IMG/VR virus record: IMGVR_UViG_3300009702_000021 | Coordinates: 19,008 to 83,007 of that record | Source: a virus | Length of the DNA stretch: 64,000 nt | Strand: one strand, 5' to 3' | Program-made: the position numbers and the translations under genes | Notes under the pieces: model-generated | Database searches by the model: none | Told to the model about the DNA's origin: nothing | Seen by the model: the letters and a program-made list of their open reading frames with translations, nothing else | Shown here: one piece after another, positions 12,809 through 34,384 of the stretch | Layout of the letters: the number at the start of each line of letters is the position of its first letter | Numbering within the stretch: the first letter of the stretch is position 1

Positions 12809-15543
12809 TCAAGGTCACGGTCTCGCCTGCCGGCACGGTCATCTTGGAGCCTACTTCCCAGGCCGACAAGAAGACCGTAAAGGACCTGCTATACGTCGTT
12901 CGCCGGAAAGGTAAATGGGTCACGTTCTGGACCTACCTCGTAGACCTCCGTCGTGACGTACCGGCGGGACTGCTCCAGTGGCACCCAGCGGCAACAGCCA
13001 GGATCCGAGCCTTGCTCCGTCAGGTCCGGGATCTAATCCGGGGAGACGATGAGAGGATTGCCGGGCAATTCAAGCCAGACCGGAGGCCCTACGACTTCCA
13101 GATGCAGGCGATCCACGCTGGCCTGAAGGCCAAGCAGATACTTATCGCTGACGATACGGGCCTCGGGAAATTATCCCCAGTCGACACCCCCGTCCTGACT
13201 CCTCTGGGCTGGCGGGAGATCGGGTCAATCCGCAAGGGAGACAGGGTCATTGGATCGGACGGGAAGCCTACAGAGGTGACGGGAGTGTTCCCACAGGGGG
13301 TCAAGCCAAGTTACCGGGTAACGTTCTCTGACGGGTCCAGCGCAGAGGCCGGACCAGAGCACCTCTGGGCGGTTGATTACTGGAGGGGAGGTCGTACCAA
13401 GTCTCGCATCGTTATAACTACTGATGATCTACGACTGCGTCCAATCAAGGATGGACTCGACCTCTCCAAGACCAGGCTCATGGTCCCCATGCTCTCTGGT
13501 CCGGTCGAGTTCGATAAGGGCCATCCCTTGCCTATCCCTCCATATGCAATGGGTGCGTTGATCGCTAATGGGGGGCTGACTTGTGGATCGGCTGTGCTTA
13601 CCTACGGGACCAAAGACTGGGACGAGATTAGGAACCTGATCTATGAGGGATACGGCTACGAACCTATGGGGAAGATTCAGAGGTCAGCCAACACAACACG
13701 AGCCAGCCTCCTCGGGGCGATAGTCGCCGTTCGCGATCTCAAACTGGATGTGAGAAGTCAGGAAAAGTACATTCCGACCTGCTACGCCACTGCATCTCCG
13801 GTTGACAGACTGAAACTCCTGCGCGGGCTCATGGATGCAGACGGGTCGATCACCAAGAAAAGGAATCGAGTCACCTACCATACGATCTCTTACGACCTAG
13901 CCCACGACGTGGCTGGGCTCGTGCAAGGACTTGGTGGGATTGGCAGTGTTCGACGCTATGACCGGACCCATGAGGGTAAGCCGGTCGAGTATCAGGTCAG
14001 GGTCAAGATGCCACATGGCATCAACCCGTTCTCACTTAGGCGAAAAGCAGACCGATATAACCCAGGACCCAAGGCTGGCCCCTGCCGAACGATCAGGACG
14101 GTCGAGTACGTTCGTGAGGCTGAGTCGGTCTGCATTTCTGTAGCTGCCAGTGACTCGCTCTACGTGGTCAAGGACCATATCTTGACTCACAACACCATCG
14201 AGTGCCTAGGAATCATGCTGACGGCCTTTCGGGAACGGTCGATCAAGCGCGCAGTCCTGGTCGTCCCAGCCGGGCTCAAGCACCAGTGGGCCGAGGAGAT
14301 CGAAGAGTTCGCGCTCGAGGCACCGGACCCGGTGATGATCGCCGTCTCGGGAAAGAACCCACGGCGCCGGAAGCAGCTATACAAGAAGCCATGGCGGGTC
14401 CTGATCATCAACCCAGAGCTAGTAAGGATCGATGAGGACAGCCTCAGGGAAGTGGCGAATGGTGTAGGCTTCGTAGCCCTCGACGAGGCATCCTGTATCC
14501 GCAACGAGGACTCGCAGATCGCTAGGGTCATGAAGCGCCTCTGGGCCTCGGCGATCTACAAGGTGGCCCTGACGGCTACTCCTGTCGAGAACCGGCTCGC
14601 GGACCTCTGGTCGATCATCCGCTGGGTAAGCCCGAAGGCGTTCCTGAGCCGGACCTACTTCGACCGCCACTACATCGTCTGGAGGAAGCTGAGGTTCAAG
14701 GTCAAGAAGCGTACGGGACGCACGGTCACGATTACCAAGGAGGAGCCCTTGCGGTACCGCAACCTCCGGGAGGTAGAGTCAAAGATCAGGCACTGCTACA
14801 TCAGGCGCCGCGTCAGCGAAGTCGGGAAGGAGCTACCCGAGCTTGTTGTCCAGTGGGACCAGCTGCTACTCCCGAAGCGTCAGCGCGCGATCTACGACGC
14901 CGTCAAGGACAAGCTCGAGAAGAAGATCAAGGGCCTACGCGGTGTCGCCCTCCACGCGCCACTCCAGGCCCTAAGGCAGGCGTGTAACAGCACCGCCCTA
15001 GTCGAGAAGGATCGCGGGCAGAAACACGCCTCAGTCAAGATCGATCGGCTCAGGGAGCTGTTGGAGACCGAGTTCACTGGCGAACAGGTGATCGTGTTCA
15101 CCGACTACGAGCGGTTCGGCCGGATCCTCAAGCACGAGCTGAGGGCCTACCGACCCGTGACCTACACCGGGAAGATGAACCGTCGGGACCGCCAGCAGGC
15201 GATCGATGCATTCAGGCTCGGTGATCGTAGGATCCTGATCGGGACCAAGGCACTCGAGCGGGGTCATAACCTCCAGAATGCCGCGATCGTGGTGAACATC
15301 GACCTCCCGTTCAACCCGGCCTCGGTCAAGCAGCGCCTCGGCCGAGTACGCCGCCTCGGCTCCAAGCACCAGACGGTCCGGCTCTGGAACATGGTAGTCA
15401 ACGACACCGTCGAGGAGCGACTGATCATGCGCTCGCTCTACGCGAAGCGGAAGCTGTTCGAAGGGATCTTCGAGTCGGACGAGCTGACCGACGCCGACCC
15501 CCTGGAGAGGATGGTCGGAGGTAAGCTGTGGGACCTCTTGTAG
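12805..15543 (+). CDS. SNF2-family (SF2) helicase containing a class 3 intein
   Basis: 912 codons; after removal of the 341-residue intein the product is ~571 residues. Motifs: QMQAIHAGL (Q-like), GLGK|T Walker A split by the intein, VLVVPAGLKHQW (Ia), ALDEAS (DEAH-like box II), LTATPVENR (III), TKALERGHNLQNA (V) and KQRLGRVRRLGS (VI). ATP-driven translocase likely used in replication or recombination. GTG start overlapping the preceding stop. The C-extein contains a palindrome copy read as LRYRN. Confidence 0.9.
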   Translation: MIKVTVSPAGTVILEPTSQADKKTVKDLLYVVRRKGKWVTFWTYLVDLRRDVPAGLLQWHPAATARIRALLRQVRDLIRGDDERIAGQFKPDRRPYDFQMQAIHAGLKAKQILIADDTGLGKLSPVDTPVLTPLGWREIGSIRKGDRVIGSDGKPTEVTGVFPQGVKPSYRVTFSDGSSAEAGPEHLWAVDYWRGGRTKSRIVITTDDLRLRPIKDGLDLSKTRLMVPMLSGPVEFDKGHPLPIPPYAMGALIANGGLTCGSAVLTYGTKDWDEIRNLIYEGYGYEPMGKIQRSANTTRASLLGAIVAVRDLKLDVRSQEKYIPTCYATASPVDRLKLLRGLMDADGSITKKRNRVTYHTISYDLAHDVAGLVQGLGGIGSVRRYDRTHEGKPVEYQVRVKMPHGINPFSLRRKADRYNPGPKAGPCRTIRTVEYVREAESVCISVAASDSLYVVKDHILTHNTIECLGIMLTAFRERSIKRAVLVVPAGLKHQWAEEIEEFALEAPDPVMIAVSGKNPRRRKQLYKKPWRVLIINPELVRIDEDSLREVANGVGFVALDEASCIRNEDSQIARVMKRLWASAIYKVALTATPVENRLADLWSIIRWVSPKAFLSRTYFDRHYIVWRKLRFKVKKRTGRTVTITKEEPLRYRNLREVESKIRHCYIRRRVSEVGKELPELVVQWDQLLLPKRQRAIYDAVKDKLEKKIKGLRGVALHAPLQALRQACNSTALVEKDRGQKHASVKIDRLRELLETEFTGEQVIVFTDYERFGRILKHELRAYRPVTYTGKMNRRDRQQAIDAFRLGDRRILIGTKALERGHNLQNAAIVVNIDLPFNPASVKQRLGRVRRLGSKHQTVRLWNMVVNDTVEERLIMRSLYAKRKLFEGIFESDELTDADPLERMVGGKLWDLL
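13171..14193 (+). other. Class 3 intein in the SNF2 helicase P-loop
   Basis: 341 residues between GLGK and T. There is no Cys/Ser at position 1 (starts LSPVD); Trp in block B (PEHLW), Cys in block F (SVCISVA) and Thr in block G (LTHN|T) form the WCT set of class 3 inteins. A LAGLIDADG-type endonuclease is present, but its first motif reads GALIANGGL, losing the catalytic Asp; the second, GLMDADGS, is intact. It is probably splicing-competent but impaired for cutting. Confidence 0.88.
14749..14762. repeat. TTGCGGTACCGCAA palindrome, perfect copy
   Basis: Inside the helicase C-extein, read as LRYRN. Confidence 0.97.
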
Positions 15544-15996: not shown

Positions 15997-18900
15997 ATGG
16001 GAAAGAAACGCACTTGGTTCCCACACTTCCACGTCCATGACGAGCACTCGATCAAGGACGGCTGCTCGACCGTCGAGACCTACGCCGACCTGGTAGTTGA
16101 GTCAGGCGGAGACTGCCTAGCGATCACGAATCACGGGCAGGCAGCCGGGTTCGCGCGCCAGTACTTCGCCTGCCGTGACCGAAAGATCAAGCCCGTCTTC
16201 GGCATGGAGGCCTACGTCAACGAGTGGAGGACTCGCCCGATCAAGAGGCTCCAGGAGGAGCTGAAGAAGGCCGAGAAGGCTGCCAAGAAGTCGCCAGCCA
16301 GGCTCTCACAGATCAAGGCCAAGCAGGAGTCCCTCAAGCGGTTCATTGCTGAGCGGTTCCGGCCAAGCCCACATGCGATCATCCTCGCTAAGAACCGGGT
16401 CGGCTACCAGAACCTCGTTCGCATGAGCACGGACAGCTACCAGCACGGCTTCTACTATGTGCCGCGGACCGACACCAAGTTCCTCTCCGAGCACCGCGAG
16501 GGGCTGATCTACAGCACAGCCTGCATCGGTGGCTACATCCCCAGGATGGCCCGGGTAGACTTCGCCGCTGCGTGCGAGGAGGCTCGTCGGCTCAAGGCGA
16601 TCTTCGAGGACGGCGGAGGTGGCTTCTACGTCGAGCTGATGATCACCGAGTACGAAGCACAGCGTGAGACCAACGAGGTCATGATCCGGCTCGCCACCGA
16701 GATCGGCGCCAAGTGCATCCTGACCTGCGACGTCCACTACGCGAAGCCCGACGACGGGCAGGCGCAGAACGTCCTCCTGCTGATGCGGGACAAGAAGACG
16801 ATAGCCGACCGGGAGGCCGGCGAGGGAGTCTGGCAGTTCGAGGCTAAGGACCTCTGGTGGAGGACGGTCCAGGACGTGGTCCAGTGCTGGAGGGAGAACC
16901 ACTCGGACTACATGGACCGGAGCTGTTTCCAGGCTGCCCTCAAGAACACCCTTGCCCTGGCAGACGAGATCGAGGACGTCGAGTTCGATACGAGCCTCAA
17001 GCTACCTGGGGTCTTCAAGGAGCCAGATCACGACCTCAAGGAGCTGGTCAAGTCGGGCTTGCGGTACCGCAAGGAGCACGGGCAGCTAGCGCCGGGAGTC
17101 AAGCTCTCGGAGTACACCGATCGGATCAAGCGTGAACTATCGGTCATCAGCCCCAAGGGGTTCAGCGAGTACTTCCTGATCCTGCACGACGTCTGCCGGG
17201 CAGCCCGGGAGATGGGAGCCCGCATGGGCCCGGGCCGCGGTAGTGCCGGCGGATCCCTGACGGCCTACCTCTGTCGGATAACCGAGATTGATCCGCTCAG
17301 GTTCGGACTCCTGTTCGAGCGGTTCCTCGATGCCGGCCGCGATGACCCACCGGACATTGACCTCGATTTCTCCCCGGAACACCGAGACGGCATCAAGGCC
17401 TATGTCGAGAAGGCCTACCCGGCAACTGCAACGATCGGGTCCAACGCTACATTCAAGCCGCGCGCCACGCTCCAGGACGTCGGCCGGGTCTTCGGGATCG
17501 ACTACCGGGAGATGCAGCAGATAACCAAGCCCCTGGGTACCGAAGCTGATGACATGACGTGGGATGAAATCTTCGAGGCCTGGCCGGCCGTTGAGAGGTT
17601 TGCTGACGACCACCCGGAGGCGTGGAGCGTCGTCCGGGTCCTCCGGGGGCTCATCAGCCACCGCGGCAAGAATGCTGCCGGGATGCTCATCGCTCCGGCC
17701 TCAGCCCTCAACGACGTCCCGATGATCATGGAGACGGACAGCAAGGGCAACAAGATGACCGTGACAGCATTTGCGGACAGCCAGGGAGACGGAGTCGAGC
17801 ACAAGGGGCGGGAGCTGACTCGACTCGGCTACCTAAAGGCCGACCTGCTCGGTGTCCGAAACCTGAACATCGCGCCGCAAGCAGTCGAGATCGTAGCGCG
17901 GGATACTGGGCAGGAGATCGACCTAGAGTCACTCTCCCTCGACGACGAGGAGACGCTCCAGACTGCGGCAACGGGAGACGTCCCAGGGGCCTTCCAGCTC
18001 GACACCAACACGACGCGACCGATCCTCCGTCACGTCGGGGTAGATAGCTTCGCTGACCTAGTCATGATTACTGCCCTCTGCCGACCAGGTCCCCTCAAGA
18101 ATCAGATTCATCGTGAGTTCGCCAAACTCAAGCGCAGCGATGCATGGGAGGACGATGTACTGCCAGAACTAAGGGAGCTGCTCCGGGACAGCCGCGGACT
18201 CATGGTCCTCCAGGAGGACGTCATGTGGGTCGTGCAGGTAGTCAGCGGCATGTCGATGCAGGAGGCCAACATGCTCCGAAAGATCATGTCGAAGAAGCAA
18301 CCTGAGGCGATGAAGCAGTGGAAGGAGAGGTTCGTTGAGGGAGGCAAGGAGGTAGGGCTCGCCACGGAAGAGGAGCTGGTCGAGCTGTGGGACAAGATCA
18401 AGACCTTTGCCGGCTACGGGTTCAATAAATGTGTATGTTATAATCAGCCCATCACCGTGAGGCGGACTTGCGGTACCGCAAAGGAGACTGATCGTGGGCA
18501 AGAGTACACCAACGAAGTGCGCGTGTGGGGCGGTGTTCCCGAAGAAGAAGTTGTGGGTGGACCACAAGAGGACGTGCAGTCCACACAAGGAGATAGTCAA
18601 ACAGGCCCGGCTGTCCAACCTCGCCAAGGCCAATGCACCGGATGCGAGGGAGAGGGCGCGAAAGACTTTCCTGATGAGGGATTACGAGGTAACCGAGGCC
18701 CAGAGAGATGCTCGAAGGAAGAATGCCCGCAAGCACCTCACGCCGTGGGCGCAGAGCGAGGATGGCAGGAGGGTGTCTTCCGAGACAGCCAAGAAAACGT
18801 CAGCGAGGAAGGATGTCAAGCAGGCGAGGGCGAAGCGCATGAAAGAGTGGGTGCGAAACAATCCAGGAGTGATCGCTCGGACAGGTCAGCGTGCAGCGGC

Positions 18901-20637
18901 ACTGGCCATCGACGGAGCAGGGGAGCTGGAGTTAGCAGAACTTCTTCACAATCTGAATGTAGTCAGACAGGAAGTGGTAGAGGTCGTACCGGGAAAGTTC
19001 GGCCTGTTCGATCTATCTCTTCCGAGCCGAAGCGTATTGATCGAGGTGGACGGCTCAGAGCACTTCAATCAGGGTGGACGGGAGATGATCGCCGACTACG
19101 CCAAGGAGGACTGGGTCAGGAGCAAGGAAAACGAGCAGGGGTGGGGATTGATCAGGGTACAACTCACCAACGACCGCAGGCTAGTCAGGGAAGTGAAGAT
19201 CGGACTCTTGCGAGCTATCAAGAAAATCAAACCGAGGGAGGTTCTATTCGTCGGGGATTGCTACGACAAGAGGAGGAGGCCCAAGAAGAGGAAACGATCC
19301 CGATCGGCGAAGTAGCCGTCGGTGACCTCGTCCTCGCACAGGATGGAGACTGGGTCCGAGTCCTCGACGTCCATGACCACGGTCTCCAAGAGTGCGTGGA
19401 GGTAGTGCTTCCGACCGGCTCCGTGGTCTGCACCTGGGATCACCGTTTTCCTACCCCACAGGGAACCCTGACGCTGCACAAAATCATCAATACCAAAACT
19501 CGGATCCTCACAAAGCAGCGCCTCGACACCATCTCAATTGACACCTGGCAGCTTCCGACCTCTGTCACTCCAGTTGGAGTTCGTCACACCGTTGATCTCG
19601 AGGTTGACCACCCGACTCACTGCTACTTCCTCGCCAACGGAGTCTGCACCCACAACAGCCACGCTACCGCCTACATGATCACTGCCTACCGTCAGCTCTA
19701 CATGCTGACCCACCACACGGTCGAGTACTTCGCTGCCCTGCTGACTCACACGCCGCGGGGTAAGAAGACTGCCGGCGGCGGGGAGCTGGTGGTCGACTAC
19801 ATGCGAGCCGCGATGTCCCGGCGGATCACCCTGCTGGGTCCATGTGTTGTAGACGGAGCTATCGGTTTCGACGTCGATAAGTACGGTCGGATTCGCTACG
19901 GCCTCGGGCACGTCAAGGGAGTCGGAGGCGCAGCCCAACTGGTAATGGCTGCGAGTCCGTTCGAGTCCCTCGAGGATATGTTCGACCGGATCGAACGACG
20001 CCGGGTCAACTCGCGCGTGTTCAAGCAGCTGATCTTCAGCGGCGCCCTGGACAAGCTCGACTTCAACCGACACGCCGGCAAGGGTGACCCGATCCCGGAG
20101 TGGATCGGAGTCGAGCGCAGAAATGGGATCCTAGCCCGCTATGAGCAGCTGAGGAAGGCGAAGGAGACACCAGATGTATTCTCGACATCGGTCCTCCGGG
20201 AGAAGGAACGTGAGGTGCTAGGACTCCCGCTGTCCTGGTGGTCCTCCGACACGGTCCAGGAACTGCGCGACCAGGAGGGGCTGGAGACGATCGACTATCA
20301 CCTCCGCAGTGACCTCAGCAAGCTAGAGATCATCGCCGAGGTCAGCAGAGCTAGGACGCACCGGACCAAGAAGGGGACGACGATGGCGTTCCTGACGCTG
20401 GCGGACGAGACCGGGACCCTGCCGAACGTCACGATCTGGCCCGAGCAGTGGTCAACATACAGGCGGATGCTCTCCCAGGGTCGGATGGCGATCATCCGCC
20501 TCCGGCGCAAGGAGAATCACAACCGCGAGTTCGGTGAGTGGTCCTACTACCTCGAGGACAAGTGGAGCGAGCCCGTCGAGAGCGTGGCCCGCGCACTACG
20601 GCGTGATACCGAAGGCGTGGAATCGGATGACGAATAG
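15997..20637 (+). CDS. dnaE: DNA polymerase III alpha subunit (C-family), intein-containing
   Basis: 1546 codons; without the 409-residue intein ~1137 residues, the usual DnaE size. The N-terminal PHP domain has HFHVHDEHSIKDG; GPGRGSAGGSLTAYL and DDPPDIDLDF carry the palm with catalytic Asp residues; the tail holds HhH and OB-fold regions (LSKLEIIAEV, AFLTLADETGTLPNVTIWPE). It would be the replicative polymerase, with DnaB and RecA nearby. The intein lies after YGFNK and before SHATAY. A start further upstream is not supported; GGAGG precedes this ATG. Confidence 0.95.
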   Translation: MGKKRTWFPHFHVHDEHSIKDGCSTVETYADLVVESGGDCLAITNHGQAAGFARQYFACRDRKIKPVFGMEAYVNEWRTRPIKRLQEELKKAEKAAKKSPARLSQIKAKQESLKRFIAERFRPSPHAIILAKNRVGYQNLVRMSTDSYQHGFYYVPRTDTKFLSEHREGLIYSTACIGGYIPRMARVDFAAACEEARRLKAIFEDGGGGFYVELMITEYEAQRETNEVMIRLATEIGAKCILTCDVHYAKPDDGQAQNVLLLMRDKKTIADREAGEGVWQFEAKDLWWRTVQDVVQCWRENHSDYMDRSCFQAALKNTLALADEIEDVEFDTSLKLPGVFKEPDHDLKELVKSGLRYRKEHGQLAPGVKLSEYTDRIKRELSVISPKGFSEYFLILHDVCRAAREMGARMGPGRGSAGGSLTAYLCRITEIDPLRFGLLFERFLDAGRDDPPDIDLDFSPEHRDGIKAYVEKAYPATATIGSNATFKPRATLQDVGRVFGIDYREMQQITKPLGTEADDMTWDEIFEAWPAVERFADDHPEAWSVVRVLRGLISHRGKNAAGMLIAPASALNDVPMIMETDSKGNKMTVTAFADSQGDGVEHKGRELTRLGYLKADLLGVRNLNIAPQAVEIVARDTGQEIDLESLSLDDEETLQTAATGDVPGAFQLDTNTTRPILRHVGVDSFADLVMITALCRPGPLKNQIHREFAKLKRSDAWEDDVLPELRELLRDSRGLMVLQEDVMWVVQVVSGMSMQEANMLRKIMSKKQPEAMKQWKERFVEGGKEVGLATEEELVELWDKIKTFAGYGFNKCVCYNQPITVRRTCGTAKETDRGQEYTNEVRVWGGVPEEEVVGGPQEDVQSTQGDSQTGPAVQPRQGQCTGCEGEGAKDFPDEGLRGNRGPERCSKEECPQAPHAVGAERGWQEGVFRDSQENVSEEGCQAGEGEAHERVGAKQSRSDRSDRSACSGTGHRRSRGAGVSRTSSQSECSQTGSGRGRTGKVRPVRSISSEPKRIDRGGRLRALQSGWTGDDRRLRQGGLGQEQGKRAGVGIDQGTTHQRPQASQGSEDRTLASYQENQTEGGSIRRGLLRQEEEAQEEETIPIGEVAVGDLVLAQDGDWVRVLDVHDHGLQECVEVVLPTGSVVCTWDHRFPTPQGTLTLHKIINTKTRILTKQRLDTISIDTWQLPTSVTPVGVRHTVDLEVDHPTHCYFLANGVCTHNSHATAYMITAYRQLYMLTHHTVEYFAALLTHTPRGKKTAGGGELVVDYMRAAMSRRITLLGPCVVDGAIGFDVDKYGRIRYGLGHVKGVGGAAQLVMAASPFESLEDMFDRIERRRVNSRVFKQLIFSGALDKLDFNRHAGKGDPIPEWIGVERRNGILARYEQLRKAKETPDVFSTSVLREKEREVLGLPLSWWSSDTVQELRDQEGLETIDYHLRSDLSKLEIIAEVSRARTHRTKKGTTMAFLTLADETGTLPNVTIWPEQWSTYRRMLSQGRMAIIRLRRKENHNREFGEWSYYLEDKWSEPVESVARALRRDTEGVESDDE
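17059..17072. repeat. TTGCGGTACCGCAA palindrome, perfect copy
   Basis: Inside dnaE, read as LRYRK. Confidence 0.97.
18468..18481. repeat. TTGCGGTACCGCAA palindrome, perfect copy
   Basis: Inside the DnaE intein, directly abutting the AAGGAG ribosome site of the nested endonuclease gene; read as CGTA in the intein frame. Confidence 0.97.
18494..19315 (+). CDS. Nested Vsr/PD-(D/E)XK-like homing endonuclease, overlapping frame
   Basis: 273 residues from GTG with AAGGAG seven bases upstream, in a different frame from dnaE. Residues ~9-30 form a zinc finger (CACGAVFPKKKLWVDHKRTC); the middle has short basic repeats like nuclease-associated DNA-binding modules; residues ~155-235 carry FGLFDLSLPSRSVLIEVDG, a His and WVRSKENEQGWGLIRVQ, as in Vsr/DUF559-type nucleases and the related EDxHD homing endonuclease family. 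It ends in a Lys/Arg-rich tail overlapping the resumed intein. It likely spreads the intein by cutting intein-less dnaE. Confidence 0.82.
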   Translation: MGKSTPTKCACGAVFPKKKLWVDHKRTCSPHKEIVKQARLSNLAKANAPDARERARKTFLMRDYEVTEAQRDARRKNARKHLTPWAQSEDGRRVSSETAKKTSARKDVKQARAKRMKEWVRNNPGVIARTGQRAAALAIDGAGELELAELLHNLNVVRQEVVEVVPGKFGLFDLSLPSRSVLIEVDGSEHFNQGGREMIADYAKEDWVRSKENEQGWGLIRVQLTNDRRLVREVKIGLLRAIKKIKPREVLFVGDCYDKRRRPKKRKRSRSAK

Positions 20638-21869: not shown

Positions 21870-23932
21870 GCGACTACGAACACATCATCACCGCCGGGAT
21901 CCTCCAGCGCCCGTCCCGCATTTCAGACGTCTCGTCGATCAAGCACGAGTACTTCTCAGACAAGGAGGCCCGAGCCCTCTTTGCGATGGTCCAGACCTAC
22001 CACGAGAAGTGCGGCCGGCGGAACGCGATGGACATCGCCCTCGCCCGGTCGCGTCTCGAGGACAGCAAGAGTAAGCTCGCGCCACACCTGCTCTACCTCG
22101 TCGACGAGTACACGGAGCTGGACCCGGTCACCGACTCCGAATTCAGGGACGCGATCGAGAAGCTGGTCACCTCGCGCCGGGAGGGGCTGCTGCGTGAGCA
22201 TGGCGCCGCTGCCCTGGAAGCCATGGTCGAGGGAGAGTACTCCGAGGCGACCGCCCGGATGCGCGAGGCCCTTCTGGCGGCCGACGACACGGACCTCGAG
22301 GACGACCGACCCGTCGACATCCGCAGCTCCGTCGAGATCGACCGGGAGCGCCGGAGGACCGAGCGGCCACCCGAGGACGGGACGCTGGGGTTCGACATCG
22401 GGTTCCCTCGGCTGATGCGCGCCACCCGGTTCCGCCGCAAGGAGCTGACGATCCTGGGAGGCTACGCCTCAGATGGCAAAGCACTGAGCCATGGGACCCC
22501 GGTCTTGACCCCGAGCGGTTGGAGGGATGTCGAGGACGTCCGGGTCGGGGAGCTGGTAACCGGCCGGGACGGGAGTCCCACCCGGGTCGTCGGCGTGTTC
22601 CCCCAAGGACGACGAGACCTGCTCAGGGTCACCTTTGCTGACGGGTGCTGGGTGGACGTGGACCAGGACCACCTCTGGGCGGTCCAGGATGTCAATGACG
22701 CCAGGAGACCTGGGTTGGTGACGAGGACCAAGACGACAAGAGAGTTGGTCCCGGACCTGCGCCTCAAGAATGGCTCCGCCAAGTGGCGGGTTCCGCTCTG
22801 CGGCTCGGTGGAATTCGAGCCCGGTCCGCCGCTCCTGATCGACCCCTACCTGCTCGGGGTCCTCTTGGGTGACGGGTGCCTGAGTCAGACTTCCGTCACC
22901 TTCTGCACCGGTGACGAGGACGTCCCGTGCGAGGTAGAGAAGGTGCTGCCTCGGGGCGTGGTCATGCGCAAAAACGGGACCGACGAAGCCTCAGGCAGGG
23001 CCGTGCGCTACAGCCTCGTGACAGAGGGGAGGAGACAGAACCCCGCCAGAGATGCCCTCGAGGCCCTCGAGGTGATGGGCAAGAGGGCCTGGGAGAAGAC
23101 GGTTCCCGAGGTCTATCTCTTCGCCAGCCCCGAGGATCGACTCTCTCTCCTGCAGGGGCTCGTCGATACCGACTCAGACGTGGCCTCGAGAGGGAAGCCC
23201 AGTTTCGTGTTCACCTCTTCGTCCGAGAACCTGACCCGCTCAGTGGCCTTCCTGGTGCGCTCACTTGGTGGTGTCGCCCGGGAGCGAAGCCGAATTCCCA
23301 CCTACTGCCACCTCGGCGAGAAGAAGCAAGGTAGGAGGTCCTACGAAGTGTGCGCGAACCTCCCGGTTCACCTGATCCCGACTAGGGCCCACCGCACCAA
23401 GTGGCCGACGAGGCTGAGCAGGAACCTCGTCAGGAAGATCACGGCCATTGAGCCCGTCGGGGAGGCGGAGGCGACCTGTCTAGCGGTTGAGGCCGAGGAC
23501 CACCTATTCATCGTCAAGGACTTCGTAGTCACACACAACACTCAGTTCAGCAAGTCACTGGCCTACAACGTCAACCGAGCGGGTGCGACCGTGATCTTCG
23601 TTGCGCTTGAGATGACCCGTGAAGAGATACGCACGATGTTCGTAGCCCAACATGCGGCATCCCTAGATCCCCGCGGGGTGCCGTGGGTCGACGCCCTGGA
23701 CGGGATCCTGAACGCCGGCCAACGGAAGCTGTGGCACCGGGCCCTCGACGACTGGCAGATCGACTCGCACGAGGACACGGACGAGATGACCAGCGAGTCC
23801 GGCTCTCTGATCATCTGGGCGCCGACCCGGCGGATCACACAGGCAGACTGGAAGGCCAGGTTGCGGGCGTCGAAGCAGGAACACGGGATCGACGTCGCCT
23901 TCAAGGACTACACCGAGCTGGTCAAGCCCTAG
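21866..23932 (+). CDS. dnaB: Replicative helicase DnaB, N-terminal and core part, with class 3 intein, ended by an in-frame TAG
   Basis: GTG start overlapping the upstream stop. The N-terminal domain begins YEHIITAGILQRPSRI; the RecA-like core starts FRRKELTILGGYASDGK, with the intein inside Walker A; after the intein TQFSKSLAYNVN and VIFVALEMTREE follow. The frame stops at TAG 23930-23932 right after IDVAFKDYTELVKP (Walker B region), yet the same frame continues with canonical DnaB sequence. Either a nonsense mutation, read-through or a sequence error; the missing Q-like residue is consistent with CAG to TAG. Confidence 0.9.
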   Translation: MSDYEHIITAGILQRPSRISDVSSIKHEYFSDKEARALFAMVQTYHEKCGRRNAMDIALARSRLEDSKSKLAPHLLYLVDEYTELDPVTDSEFRDAIEKLVTSRREGLLREHGAAALEAMVEGEYSEATARMREALLAADDTDLEDDRPVDIRSSVEIDRERRRTERPPEDGTLGFDIGFPRLMRATRFRRKELTILGGYASDGKALSHGTPVLTPSGWRDVEDVRVGELVTGRDGSPTRVVGVFPQGRRDLLRVTFADGCWVDVDQDHLWAVQDVNDARRPGLVTRTKTTRELVPDLRLKNGSAKWRVPLCGSVEFEPGPPLLIDPYLLGVLLGDGCLSQTSVTFCTGDEDVPCEVEKVLPRGVVMRKNGTDEASGRAVRYSLVTEGRRQNPARDALEALEVMGKRAWEKTVPEVYLFASPEDRLSLLQGLVDTDSDVASRGKPSFVFTSSSENLTRSVAFLVRSLGGVARERSRIPTYCHLGEKKQGRRSYEVCANLPVHLIPTRAHRTKWPTRLSRNLVRKITAIEPVGEAEATCLAVEAEDHLFIVKDFVVTHNTQFSKSLAYNVNRAGATVIFVALEMTREEIRTMFVAQHAASLDPRGVPWVDALDGILNAGQRKLWHRALDDWQIDSHEDTDEMTSESGSLIIWAPTRRITQADWKARLRASKQEHGIDVAFKDYTELVKP
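22481..23539 (+). other. Class 3 intein in the DnaB P-loop
   Basis: 353 residues between SDGK and T. Starts ALSHGTPVLTPSGW, has DHLW (block B Trp), ATCLAVEAEDH (block F Cys) and VVTHN|T (block G Thr). LAGLIDADG motifs GVLLGDGCL and GLVDTDSD are both intact. Class 3 inteins at this DnaB site are known from mycobacteriophages. Confidence 0.88.
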
Positions 23933-30266: not shown

Positions 30267-30317
30267 ATGAATGACAGAGGGATGTGCTGGCCGACCCCAG
30301 CGTGGAGACACCCATGA
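30267..30317 (+). CDS. 16-residue leader-like ORF before the Ski2-type helicase
   Basis: ATG preceded by CGGAG; the stop overlaps the helicase ATG (ATGA). It encodes MNDRGMCWPTPAWRHP. It may couple translation; existence as a peptide is speculative. The remaining 100 bases of the gap show no other feature. Confidence 0.3.
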   Translation: MNDRGMCWPTPAWRHP

Positions 30318-33300
30318 GCAAGAGCAGGTTGACCCCGGTCCTGAAGGGCCTCAACCCCATAGAGAAGTCGAGAGTTGAGACCTGGGTGCCCACGGACCGG
30401 GAGGGCCTGGTCGTTCGGGTCAGGGATCCCGGACCCGGTGAGGGGATCCCGGTCACCCTGATCGAGGACCTGACTGAGGTAGAGGTCCACGACGAGACAT
30501 CCGGTGCGTGGATCCGGGGCCGCGCCGCAGCACAGACTACCCCTGGCTGGCCCGTCACGCTGATCAAGGCCGTCGAGAGGATCCGCGCCGAGGCCGAGCG
30601 AGCCATGGTCTGCCCGGAGTGCGACAGCTACCTGATCCTCCGGGACCGGGACCTAGAGTGCGCGGAGTGCGGACTGTGCATGAACCCCGACTGCCCGAAC
30701 TGCGGAGGCCGGACGGCCTTGCGGTACCGCAAGCTCAAGGGCCAGCCAGCCGACATCCCTCCGGCATTCTGGGCGTGCCGGGATGATGCCTGCGCCTCTG
30801 CGCTCCTGTGGGGCCAGCGAGACCCTCAACCACAGCAGGTCCCGGATAAGCCGTGGACGGAGCACGGGGAGAGGGAGGAGCAGATCGCGGAGGCGCGTGA
30901 GGTCCTAGATCACCCGCTGGTCTCGGAAGCCAATGCGGTCAAGAAGCTGCGAGTGATCCTCGACGAGAACCCCGACCGGGTCCTGCCACTGGTCCTCGGG
31001 GAGACCACGCCCTCAGGCAAGAAGACGGTCCAAGCCAGGCTCGAGGAAAAGCTGGCTGAGGAGCGCCGGCAGGGCAAGCCACGACGCCGGGTCAAGAGGC
31101 GTGCCCAGAAGGCACGCCGGGTCCAGCCCGGGGAGAAGCGTGAGGGTATCAAGTACTACGGCCCCGAGGACTCATTGCCTGGTCCGTCCGGGACGTCCCT
31201 GGTCGAGGTCCCTGAGGACGATGAGACCTCCGTGGCGTCGTCTGTCTACCCACACCACCGGCTAGCTCATGCAGCGCTGAACCCGATCCAGTCGCGCGTC
31301 CTCGATGTCTATGACCGGAACTGCAACGTGGTGATCGCCGCCAGCACCAGTGCTGGTAAGACCCTCAGCGCTGAGATGGTCATGGGTGACGCCCTCGACC
31401 GCGGCGCCAAAGCGATCTTCCTCGCGCCGCTCCGGGCCGTCAGCCAGGAGAAGTACGACGACTGGTGCGATGAGGACCACCCGTGGTCAGAACTAGGGGT
31501 CGAAATCTGCACGGGTGACTACACGATGAGCCAGGCGAAGCGGAAGGCCCTGCGCCGCGCCGACGTGATCGTGATGACATCTGAGATGCTCGACTCCAAG
31601 ACGCGTCGGATGGGGAGCGACGAGAACGGCTGGCTGATGGAGACACTCTGCGTGGTCGGCTCCTCCGGGATTGCACTTGCGGACGGGACTACGAAGACAA
31701 TCAAGGAGATCGTGGAGGAGCGTCTCGAGATTGAGGTCTTAGCTTTCAATCACTCGATTGGGAAAGTCGTCAAGCGCAGGGTGACGGGATGGCACAAGAA
31801 CCGGTTAGGAGACAGGAATCTCGTTGAGATCACTTGCGGTACCGCAAGTCTGACCTGCACCGAAGATCATGAGATATACCAGCGAGGCGTGGGGTATACT
31901 GCTGCCAGGAAGCTCACATCTTCGAGCACGCTGGAGGTGCTGGATGCCGGTCAAGAAGGGACACAGATTCGGCGCGAAGCGCACGGTCGAGCTGACGGAC
32001 ATAGAGCGATCGGTTGTCATAGGGACACTGCTCGGAGACAGCTCACTATCGTGGGGAACAGGGAACCGGGTAAGTGCCAGAATGCGTGTGAGGAACAGCC
32101 TCGCACAGCGGGAGTTCGTGTTGTGGAAGTACGAGATGCTTCGGCGTCTTGTGCGGACTCCTCCGAAGGAGGCGCCGAATCGTGGATACAAGCGCGACGG
32201 AATGGCATTCGGATTTTCCACGAGGTCCTTCGGAGAGGACCTACTCAAGATCAAACAATTGATCGAACCCGGGAAGACGGTGACGCGCGATCTGCTGGAC
32301 TTGTTGACGGAGCCAGAGGGACTGGCCGCGTGGTACATGGACGACGGATCGAGGTCGAGGGGGGCGAGTCTCGTACTACATACACAGTCAATGACTGCCG
32401 ACGAGGTGCGGTTGACGTCGCGTTGGCTCAGGGAGGAGTGGAATATCGAGACCAGGCCGATGTCGGTCAAGAACAGAGCCTACGAGGTGCTACGTATTCC
32501 GGCGGAATCAGGCGAGCGGTTTATGGATATCGTGAGACCATTCGTGACCGGGATAACATGCATGGAGCACAAGGTATTGCACAGGAGAGAGTCGCTGTTC
32601 TGCACGATGTGCGGCACAGGGTTCGAGGCAACGAGGCGTCAGATCCAGCGCGAGACGAGACTTGTCACCTGCCGGTCCGAGGACTGCATGAGGGCCCTAG
32701 CCCGTATGATTCAGAGACTGAACGACGCGAGGATCGGTTCGTCTACGACCTAACCGTCGAGGGTGAGCACAACTACTTCGCCGAGGGAGTCCTGGTCCAC
32801 AACTGCGTGGTCGTTGACGAGGCTCACCTGCTAACGATGAAGGACCGCGGCGACGCCTTGGAGTGCGGACTCGAGCGATTCACTCGGTTCAACCCCCACG
32901 CTAGGATCGTCCTCCTCAGCGCGACCATGCCGAACGTCCATGAGCTAGGGTCCTGGCTGACCCGCCTGAACGGGAAGCCGACCCGCCTTGTCCAGAGCGC
33001 GTGGCGTCCCACCAAGCTGACCGTTCACCCCGTGCCGTACGACCACCAGACGTCGGGTTACAGCTACCACAAGAACGAGGACTCCAAGCGGGCTAAGGCG
33101 ATCGAGCTGCTCCAGAAGTACAGCGAGGACAAGTGGATCGTCTTCGTCCACACGAAGAAGATGGGCCACGCCCTGCTGGCCCAGCTACGGGACCGGCACG
33201 AGCCAGCCGAATTCCATAGCGCTGACCTCACCCGAGACAACAGGCTCCGGCTCGAGGACCGGTTCAGGCACGGAGACCTCAGGGTCGTCGTAGCCACTTC

Positions 33301-34384
33301 GACCCTGGCCTACGGCATCAACATGCCGGCGCGACGGGTCATGGTCGTCGGAATCCACCGCGGCCTGGAGAAGGTCGCACCGCTAGACGTACTCCAGATG
33401 TTCGGGCGGGCCGGGCGAGTGGGCCTCGACCCTGAAGGCGATGCCTACCTACTGGTCCCGGAGACCCGTGATCCACGCGAGTTCGACCGGACCGTCGAGG
33501 CCTACTCGAAGCCAGGTCTGATCGAGAGCCAGCTGAACGAACTGCACACGCTGGCCTTCCACTTGACGGCGGAGGTAGCCGAGGGGTCAGTGAGGACGAC
33601 CGCGGATGCAGTTGCCTGGCACGCCCGTTCGCTCGCGGCACAGCAGGGCCGGGGTCTTGACCAGGAAGGGAAGGTGCTCAGCGCCTCCCGGGTAATGCAT
33701 GACCTCTGCCAGTGCGGCGTCCTCAAGGAGGAGGACGGGAGCTATGAGGCGACACAGCTCGGTCACGTCGCGAGCCGACTCTACTACAGTCCGTTCGACG
33801 TAGCTGACTGGGCGTCCAACTTCCGCTGGGCCGCGGAGCGGGATAAGCACCACAACGATGACGTGGTCGCGTGGGCGCTCGGGAACGTCCGGTCGGCCTA
33901 TTCCAAGAGCTACTTGCCGAAGGAACACGCTGGTGACATGGGAGACCTCGAGTGGCGCCTAGGACAGGTCGGAGTGGACCGGGCCTCCAACCTCCCGCCC
34001 GCTTGCCTGGCTTTCCGTGGGATGATCGAGGGGACCAAGTACAGGGCGATGTCGTCCTATCAGCGCCAGCTAGAGTACGACGCCGACAGGATCATGCAGG
34101 CGATCACCATGATCGACGCTCGGGTGCTCAAGTCGCTCGGGAAGACCTACTGTGACGGCCTGGGTATGCGACTTCGCTACGGGTGCTCCTGGGAGGAGGC
34201 CGACCTGTGTCACATCCCCGGGGTAGGCTCCCGCCGCGCACGGCAACTGGCTGCCGCGGGAGTCAGTGGGGTAATGGACGTCCTGGAGAATCGCAAGAAG
34301 GTGGTCGACGCACTCGGGAGCAAGATCGCGCAGAGCGTGATCCGCGGGGCTAAGGAGGTTGCCAGGAAGCGTGGAGCGCGTTGA
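30314..34384 (+). CDS. Ski2/Hel308-like SF2 helicase with class 1 intein
   Basis: 1356 residues, ~971 after splicing. N-terminal zinc ribbons (CPECDSYLILRDRDLECAECG, NCGGRT) lie at ~97-140 and a basic linker follows. Helicase motifs: NPIQSRVLD (Q), ASTSAGKTLSAEM (I), FLAPLRAV (Ia), VVVDEAHLL (II, next to the intein), LLSATMPN (III), STLAYGINMPA (V), QMFGRAGRVG (VI), then a helical domain and HhH (IPGVGSRRARQLAAAG). Hel308 relatives unwind stalled forks; a recombination-dependent replication role is inferred. Confidence 0.9.
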   Translation: MSKSRLTPVLKGLNPIEKSRVETWVPTDREGLVVRVRDPGPGEGIPVTLIEDLTEVEVHDETSGAWIRGRAAAQTTPGWPVTLIKAVERIRAEAERAMVCPECDSYLILRDRDLECAECGLCMNPDCPNCGGRTALRYRKLKGQPADIPPAFWACRDDACASALLWGQRDPQPQQVPDKPWTEHGEREEQIAEAREVLDHPLVSEANAVKKLRVILDENPDRVLPLVLGETTPSGKKTVQARLEEKLAEERRQGKPRRRVKRRAQKARRVQPGEKREGIKYYGPEDSLPGPSGTSLVEVPEDDETSVASSVYPHHRLAHAALNPIQSRVLDVYDRNCNVVIAASTSAGKTLSAEMVMGDALDRGAKAIFLAPLRAVSQEKYDDWCDEDHPWSELGVEICTGDYTMSQAKRKALRRADVIVMTSEMLDSKTRRMGSDENGWLMETLCVVGSSGIALADGTTKTIKEIVEERLEIEVLAFNHSIGKVVKRRVTGWHKNRLGDRNLVEITCGTASLTCTEDHEIYQRGVGYTAARKLTSSSTLEVLDAGQEGTQIRREAHGRADGHRAIGCHRDTARRQLTIVGNREPGKCQNACEEQPRTAGVRVVEVRDASASCADSSEGGAESWIQARRNGIRIFHEVLRRGPTQDQTIDRTREDGDARSAGLVDGARGTGRVVHGRRIEVEGGESRTTYTVNDCRRGAVDVALAQGGVEYRDQADVGQEQSLRGATYSGGIRRAVYGYRETIRDRDNMHGAQGIAQERVAVLHDVRHRVRGNEASDPARDETCHLPVRGLHEGPSPYDSETERREDRFVYDLTVEGEHNYFAEGVLVHNCVVVDEAHLLTMKDRGDALECGLERFTRFNPHARIVLLSATMPNVHELGSWLTRLNGKPTRLVQSAWRPTKLTVHPVPYDHQTSGYSYHKNEDSKRAKAIELLQKYSEDKWIVFVHTKKMGHALLAQLRDRHEPAEFHSADLTRDNRLRLEDRFRHGDLRVVVATSTLAYGINMPARRVMVVGIHRGLEKVAPLDVLQMFGRAGRVGLDPEGDAYLLVPETRDPREFDRTVEAYSKPGLIESQLNELHTLAFHLTAEVAEGSVRTTADAVAWHARSLAAQQGRGLDQEGKVLSASRVMHDLCQCGVLKEEDGSYEATQLGHVASRLYYSPFDVADWASNFRWAAERDKHHNDDVVAWALGNVRSAYSKSYLPKEHAGDMGDLEWRLGQVGVDRASNLPPACLAFRGMIEGTKYRAMSSYQRQLEYDADRIMQAITMIDARVLKSLGKTYCDGLGMRLRYGCSWEEADLCHIPGVGSRRARQLAAAGVSGVMDVLENRKKVVDALGSKIAQSVIRGAKEVARKRGAR
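30719..30732. repeat. TTGCGGTACCGCAA palindrome, perfect copy
   Basis: Inside the Ski2-like helicase gene, read as LRYRK just after the zinc ribbon. Confidence 0.97.
31834..31847. repeat. TTGCGGTACCGCAA palindrome, perfect copy
   Basis: Inside the intein N-terminal splicing domain, read as CGTAS; about 100 bases upstream of the nested endonuclease start. Extends to 18 bp (ACTT...AAGT). Confidence 0.97.
31944..32753 (+). CDS. Nested LAGLIDADG homing endonuclease, overlapping frame
   Basis: 269 residues from ATG with GGAGG six bases upstream, in a different frame from the helicase/intein. VVIGTLLGDSSLS and LAAWYMDDGSRSR are the two LAGLIDADG helices; the C-terminal part has a zinc-like cluster (CTMCGTGFEATRRQIQ ... 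CRSEDC). An upstream in-frame ATG at 31869 lacks a ribosome site. It ends inside the resumed intein block F region. Likely drives intein homing. Confidence 0.85.
   Translation: MPVKKGHRFGAKRTVELTDIERSVVIGTLLGDSSLSWGTGNRVSARMRVRNSLAQREFVLWKYEMLRRLVRTPPKEAPNRGYKRDGMAFGFSTRSFGEDLLKIKQLIEPGKTVTRDLLDLLTEPEGLAAWYMDDGSRSRGASLVLHTQSMTADEVRLTSRWLREEWNIETRPMSVKNRAYEVLRIPAESGERFMDIVRPFVTGITCMEHKVLHRRESLFCTMCGTGFEATRRQIQRETRLVTCRSEDCMRALARMIQRLNDARIGSSTT

Follow-up and report, generated by a model that had tools for sequence, protein, structure and literature searches.

A phage dnaE intein with a predicted homing endonuclease gene in a second reading frame

The virus represented by IMG/VR record IMGVR_UViG_3300009702_000021, of which a 64,000-nucleotide stretch was analyzed (hereafter the window; bases 19008-83007 of the 83,007-base record), possesses a dnaE gene with an intein, inside which a candidate homing endonuclease gene (HEG) lies in a different reading frame. 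Sequence analysis makes it very probable that this mobile intein represents two overlapping genes in one DNA, i.e., a precursor that would be spliced and a homing endonuclease that would be initiated internally. Inteins of this arrangement are here termed overprinted. The features concerned are as follows (window positions):

15997..20637, + strand: dnaE (DNA polymerase III alpha) open reading frame (ORF) with intein, stop-free, 1546 aa (Pfam PHP, DNA_pol3_alpha, finger and HHH_6; phrog_405)
18430..19656, + strand: dnaE intein, 409 codons, inserted at FNK|SH, with C1, TxxH and HN|S all found
18430..18474, + strand: intein N arm (CVCYNQPITVRRTCG), the portion preceding the insert, by alignment
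18480..18486, + strand: Shine-Dalgarno (SD) sequence AAAGGAG of the HEG, 7 nt before its GTG, duplex -8.7 kcal/mol
18494..19315, + strand: HEG, out of frame (+1 relative to dnaE), GTG to TAG, 273 aa
18494..18610, + strand: N-terminal zinc-finger-like segment of the HEG product (CACG...H..C), from the predicted model and weak zinc-finger matches
18917..19273, + strand: C-terminal restriction-endonuclease-like domain of the HEG product, with E144, D173, E184xD186G, H190, E205/D206 and R221
19288..19656, + strand: intein C arm, by alignment, its first ~9 codons overlapped by the 3' end of the HEG
19372..19383, + strand: HDHG motif, common to other overprinted dnaE inteins, by alignment
19432..19443, + strand: intein block B, TWDH (TxxH), by alignment

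Coding evidence in both frames

The dnaE product is a phage-type DNA polymerase III alpha subunit, whose intein follows the upstream extein ...AGYGFNK and extends from C1 (CVCYNQPITV...) to ...ANGVCTHN|SHATAY. A previous interpretation of this DNA, made from its letters and ORFs alone (the sequence-only reading), had held that the intein is open from Cys1 to HN|S in the dnaE frame and that a 273-residue nuclease with its own GTG and SD sequence is encoded one frame over; both claims are borne out, the SD sequence being read here as AAAGGAG. The sequence motifs of a class 1 (Hint) intein of the DnaE type are present, i.e., Cys/Ser1, TxxH and a C-terminal (H)N followed by Ser/Thr/Cys+1, and homology covers both arms, since a profile built from 15 same-site inteins matched DnaE inteins of the PDB in two stretches at an E-value of 1.4e-25. 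Mycobacteriophage matches of the C arm were antisense to annotated genes and were regarded as fortuitous, and L001 was rejected as a relative, being an unrelated protein with only one short Hint-like stretch in common.

The frame of the HEG carries the coding signal over its own length. GC content by codon position in this frame (0.56/0.44/0.71; 18494-19312) resembles that of the phage's genes, and codon log-odds per codon favored the HEG frame (+0.14) over the dnaE frame (-0.36) and the third frame (-0.61), while on both flanks the dnaE frame scores best. The SD duplex is as strong as those preceding several real genes of the phage; among 151 start-like codons in dnaE, 14 match or exceed its score.

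The dnaE frame is nonetheless free of stops throughout the HEG, as opposed to 15 stops in the third frame. When the HEG was recoded with phage codon usage, 9-10 dnaE-frame stops were expected and the frame stayed open in only 5e-5 to 2e-4 of trials; shuffling of the HEG's own synonymous codons gave an expectation of 8.4 stops and no open frame in 20,000 shuffles. In other genes of the window the same register contains 0.033 stops per codon, with a longest open run of 171 codons, and (1-0.033)^273 amounts to 1e-4. Chance openness of the dnaE frame across the HEG is thus excluded, and the absence of dnaE-frame stops despite the coding signal of the HEG frame indicates that both frames are in use.

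The endonuclease and its relatives at the dnaE site

An AlphaFold2 (AF2) model of the HEG product obtained with 25 homologues (pLDDT 83.5) combines an N terminus resembling a zinc finger with long helices and, at the C terminus, a restriction-endonuclease core, and alignment shows E144, D173, H190 and R221 to be kept across 25 relatives. Foldseek searches with this model returned AbaSI/PvuRts1I and Vsr among the top PDB matches, with weak E-values of 0.03-0.16, and, among viral models, DUF559/Vsr-like proteins and homing endonucleases at 1e-5 to 1e-3. A single-sequence AF2 model was poor (pLDDT 51) and its Foldseek matches were meaningless, and a tblastn search of the HEG against named phages gave no match at E < 0.01. 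The product is, on its motifs and modelled fold, a candidate member of the EDxHD (Vsr-like) family of homing endonucleases, with predicted activity; of the earlier label, Vsr/PD-(D/E)XK-like, the Vsr-like part stands and the whole is amended to EDxHD/Vsr-like.

Other inteins at this dnaE site were sought with a pattern for GYGFNKC, and the HEG family was then assembled by profile search. In-frame and fractured versions, which the sequence-only reading had proposed looking for, were both found at the same site, as were overprinted ones. Three relatives are in-frame HNH inteins (L011, L016 and L019; the truncated L014 may be another), four are mini-inteins (L015, L023, L031 and L033) and four are fractured dnaE genes (L020, L021, L027 and L029), between whose halves lies an endonuclease homologous to the window HEG (BLASTP 5e-15 and 2e-10), the common features being a block TSARKD...W.R..P and the EDxHD columns. 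This supports the earlier suggestion that the window harbors an unsplit intein related to fractured genes that have free-standing Vsr-like endonucleases.

The HEG family comprises 25 members, which host-frame analysis split in two groups. In roughly fifteen cases the HEG is fractured or free, i.e., the host ORF ends after ~100 intein codons, and the HEG and a C half with its own start follow; altogether, 15 or more fractured dnaE genes with split inteins have a HEG homologue at FNK|SH. Eight HEGs are overprinted, namely those of the window, L035, L037, L038, L047, L050, L078 and L079, the latter seven representing five phage contigs and two bacterial chromosomal dnaE genes (L078 from a Thiotrichaceae metagenome-assembled genome (MAG) and L079 from a proteobacterium MAG, 40-41% GC), which according to Pfam encode ordinary DnaE proteins. 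In all eight the intein is located at FNK|SH, the HEG is in +1 and the host frame is stop-free across it, at GC contents from 0.35 to 0.62. The claim that the intein carries its HEG in a different frame is therefore supported by stop avoidance and by seven homologous dnaE inteins. The first intein residue of those seven is Thr1 or Ser1, an uncommon start for an intein of class 1.

With the HEG in +1, the host frame acquires a stop only if a HEG codon ends in T and the next one starts with AA, AG or GA. Among T and C at such third positions, T is absent from the eight overprinted HEGs (0/218, as compared to 447/679 at other positions), whereas fractured HEGs contain it at 558/908 stop-making positions versus 1098/1510 elsewhere. 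Every overprinted HEG singly departs from a synonymous-permutation null, with 7-18 stops expected and none seen. Furthermore, overprinted pairs differ most at third positions of the HEG (0.25/0.25/0.48 by codon position for L078 and L079), and amino acid identity between these two is higher for the HEG (0.62) than for the host frame (0.42), indicating that the HEG is under selection at the protein level and that the host frame is held mainly to openness. Both frames are kept open by selection. As a third-position change from T to C is always synonymous, the genetic code would permit a +1 HEG to keep any protein sequence.

In a tree of the HEGs, the eight overprinted members are parted from the 17 others by one branch with a support of 95/100, the window HEG being nearest to that of L038. 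One switch between architectures would thus suffice for this family, in either direction.

The sequence-only reading had placed the insert ~20 residues into the intein, at the site where atypical split inteins break. Its start does overlap the intein from residues 21-22 onward, to which it should be added that its 3' end runs into the C arm for ~9 residues. The assignment to the atypical-split site is correct for the window alone, in which the HEG follows ~15-21 intein residues and the canonical endonuclease position is, by alignment, occupied by a short linker; in all overprinted and fractured dnaE relatives examined, the HEG is found at that canonical position, after block B (~aa 95).

Recurrence in other genes and endonuclease families

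A second overprinted intein is present in the window, in a helicase gene:

30284..34384, + strand: superfamily 2 helicase ORF with the second overprinted intein
31649..32803, + strand: helicase intein (CVVGSSG...VLVHN|C), located just before motif II VVVDEAH (Pfam Intein_splicing, 1.2e-9)
31869..32753, + strand: second out-of-frame (+1) HEG, LAGLIDADG_2, 294 aa, within the helicase intein (3.2e-27)

This HEG leaves no stop in the host frame, where 8.2 are expected, and shows T at 0/31 versus 31/76 positions. Its relatives L092-L095 are in frame with their hosts, so that both designs occur within one endonuclease family. Two further inteins of the window contain ordinary in-frame LAGLIDADG endonucleases, one in an SNF2-type helicase (13168-14187) and one in a DnaB-like helicase (22481-23533); this phage thus has at least four inteins, two in-frame and two overprinted.

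Judged by sequence, independent cases of the design cover at least three endonuclease folds (EDxHD/DUF559 Vsr-type, a different PD-(D/E)XK and LAGLIDADG) and several host genes. The dnaE gene of L038 (IMGVR_UViG_3300017971_000250) contains two inteins, each hiding a different +1 endonuclease, that of the second being a PD-(D/E)XK nuclease of another type. In L054, a DUF559 nuclease (1.6e-13) is hidden in the second intein of a terminase-like gene; this host was recognized by eye as a terminase large subunit, gave no Pfam terminase match and is of unsure identity. Two cultured phages possess helicases whose intein contains a DUF559 HEG out of frame, namely Corynebacterium phage phi673 (gp43, L080) and Pseudomonas phage MR14 (gp44, L081), and five IMG/VR relatives (L087-L091) are also overprinted. 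In Xanthomonas phage FoX3 gp40 (L084), the helicase intein conceals a LAGLIDADG ORF in register +2 (P 0.008). In the records of these three named phages the helicase intein is unannotated, and the in-frame middle of the protein is not a real domain.

Two ideas on the choice of register were discarded: a preference for +1 on account of a hydrophilic filler, for which the difference was small and not specific to +1, and a register that is always +1, which FoX3 refutes, the independent origins being too few to claim a significant bias. Of note, the T4-type gp41 helicase of Shigella phage ESh36 (L005; ON528746) is fractured, and an EDxHD-like endonuclease ORF overlaps both halves; the annotation lists two primase/helicase genes plus a hypothetical protein.

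Proposed mechanism, alternatives and known systems

It is proposed that a ribosome would read dnaE through the intein, translating the HEG region as a filler loop of ~270 residues between the Hint arms, after which the intein would excise itself and the polymerase halves would be ligated at FNK|SH. A second ribosome would initiate at the internal GTG behind AAAGGAG and produce a separate 273-aa EDxHD/Vsr-like endonuclease with an N-terminal zinc finger. This enzyme would cut intein-less dnaE near FNK|SH, upon which the intein together with its HEG would be copied in.

Several observations weigh against this proposal. Most of the seven overprinted dnaE relatives end in SN|S and lack the penultimate His, and confidence in the splicing of these Thr1/Ser1 inteins is accordingly lower than for the window intein, which has C1 and HN|S. 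The SD sequence is weak in some relatives (-1.5 in L037 and -4.1 in phi673). The window HEG sits at the end of a long branch (3.93) and has only 19-28% identity to its relatives, and in view of this divergence its predicted activity is less assured than that of the relatives; for the last catalytic acid, the alignment is ambiguous between E205 and D206. Finally, the sources are mostly metagenome contigs, with phi673, MR14 and FoX3 as named phage records.

Programmed +1 frameshifting from dnaE, which would yield a fusion of N-extein, intein N part and HEG product and dispense with internal initiation, is considered improbable. It would agree with the occurrence of the HEG in +1 in nearly all cases and with a HEG frame that, in the window, is open for 11 codons before the GTG, but in L037, L047, L078 and L079 a stop lies in the HEG frame 2-3 codons ahead of the ATG, SD-like sequences precede the HEG start in the window, L035, L047, L078, L038 and L050, and FoX3 employs +2.

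It is also possible to suppose that the intein does not splice, either because it is decaying or because the insert stays in DnaE, as is thought for the ShiLan insertion (PMC11855218). This is deemed very improbable: complete Hint motifs flank the HEG, the match to PDB inteins described above spans both arms, and the insertion lies between FNK and SH of a polymerase whose gene is essential in the two bacterial cases.

That the nuclease is truly in frame, and that a pair of base errors or naturally occurring frameshifts at its ends mimics the present arrangement, is scarcely credible. The window is a single metagenomic record, and the in-frame LAGLIDADG relatives L092-L095 make an origin by paired indels conceivable; errors would not, however, clear ~8-30 expected stops from the other frame, the arrangement is repeated in many independent assemblies and named phages, and the HEGs possess starts of their own, closely preceded by stops in the HEG frame. 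As a description of the present state this explanation is refuted by the stop-avoidance data. The one-base sequencing error that the sequence-only reading had named as fatal to it likewise falls away, because stop-avoidance statistics and seven homologous dnaE inteins of the same arrangement leave no need for it. Removal or skipping of the insert at the RNA level, by a group I/II intron housing a HEG or by ribosomal bypassing, is equally hard to credit: phage HEGs are often housed in group I introns and long translational bypasses are known, but no Rfam intron family was matched in the window region or in nine relatives, the HEG ends overlap the Hint arms and leave no space for a ribozyme, and a host frame whose insert left the message could bear stops, of which none were seen.

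Whether overprinted inteins represent a widespread third mobile-intein architecture, beside in-frame full-length inteins and fractured or split ones, is regarded as an evenly balanced question. On this reading they would originate by entry of an endonuclease gene into an intein in +1, where its protein could evolve freely, every host-frame stop being removable silently, and they would be the missing link to fractured genes and naturally split inteins, for which one stop mutation and one internal start would suffice. The findings bear on the origin of split inteins and on the way in which free-standing endonucleases become established within inteins; the occurrence of homologues of the same HEG in fractured dnaE genes at the same site renders the route from contiguous to split directly testable. 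Overprinted inteins are furthermore unusually clean natural dual-coding genes (no T at any of the 218 third positions where it is forbidden), account for low-complexity stretches that would otherwise make no sense in annotated phage proteins, phi673 gp43 for example, and provide inteins in which long foreign loops are tolerated at defined places.

A full-text search confined to openly licensed papers retrieved no other report of out-of-frame or overprinted endonucleases in inteins, and the overprinted mobile intein appears to be previously undescribed. Canonical full-length inteins, with in-frame LAGLIDADG or HNH endonucleases, similarly unite Hint and homing endonuclease in one mobile unit, but their endonuclease is a domain of the same polypeptide, whereas that of the window is encoded by a separate overlapping gene in +1 relative to the host. 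It has been stated that intein endonuclease domains all occupy one conserved site, to which they are argued to be confined, and discussed why free-standing endonucleases seem not to invade elsewhere (PMC6801210); overprinted inteins present endonucleases of several families inside inteins and outside the intein protein, one of them at an atypical position. In atypically split inteins the N-terminal part is 15 aa in PolB16 OarG and 25 aa in AceL-TerL (PMC10189870, PMC11766414). The window intein resembles these in being interrupted after ~15-20 residues, within the ~15-37 residues of such breaks, and differs in that they consist of two polypeptides, while here a single ORF has an 820-nt overlapping gene at the break.

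The ShiLan domain and the Pacc40 insertion are out-of-frame HNH endonucleases in phage methylases (PMC11855218). They share with the window a HEG in another frame and a stop-free host frame, but belong to the HNH family, lack a Shine-Dalgarno sequence, reside in a non-essential methylase and are surrounded by neither an intein or intron nor splicing motifs, whereas intein arms flank the window HEG. With I-Bth0305I and the EDxHD family, the window HEG product shares the E, D, H and R columns and a Vsr-like fold; the I-Bth0305I structure was not among the Foldseek matches listed, and membership is assigned tentatively, by motif and fold.

Fractured genes with split inteins and Vsr-like (EDxHD) endonucleases were reportedly described by Dassa et al. 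in 2009. The window has in common with such genes a homologous EDxHD-type HEG, the same dnaE insertion site, at which the intein is split in those genes, and the same intein lineage; in fractured genes, however, stops break the host into two ORFs, each with one intein half, around a free-standing HEG, whereas in the window the HEG overlaps an unbroken host gene.
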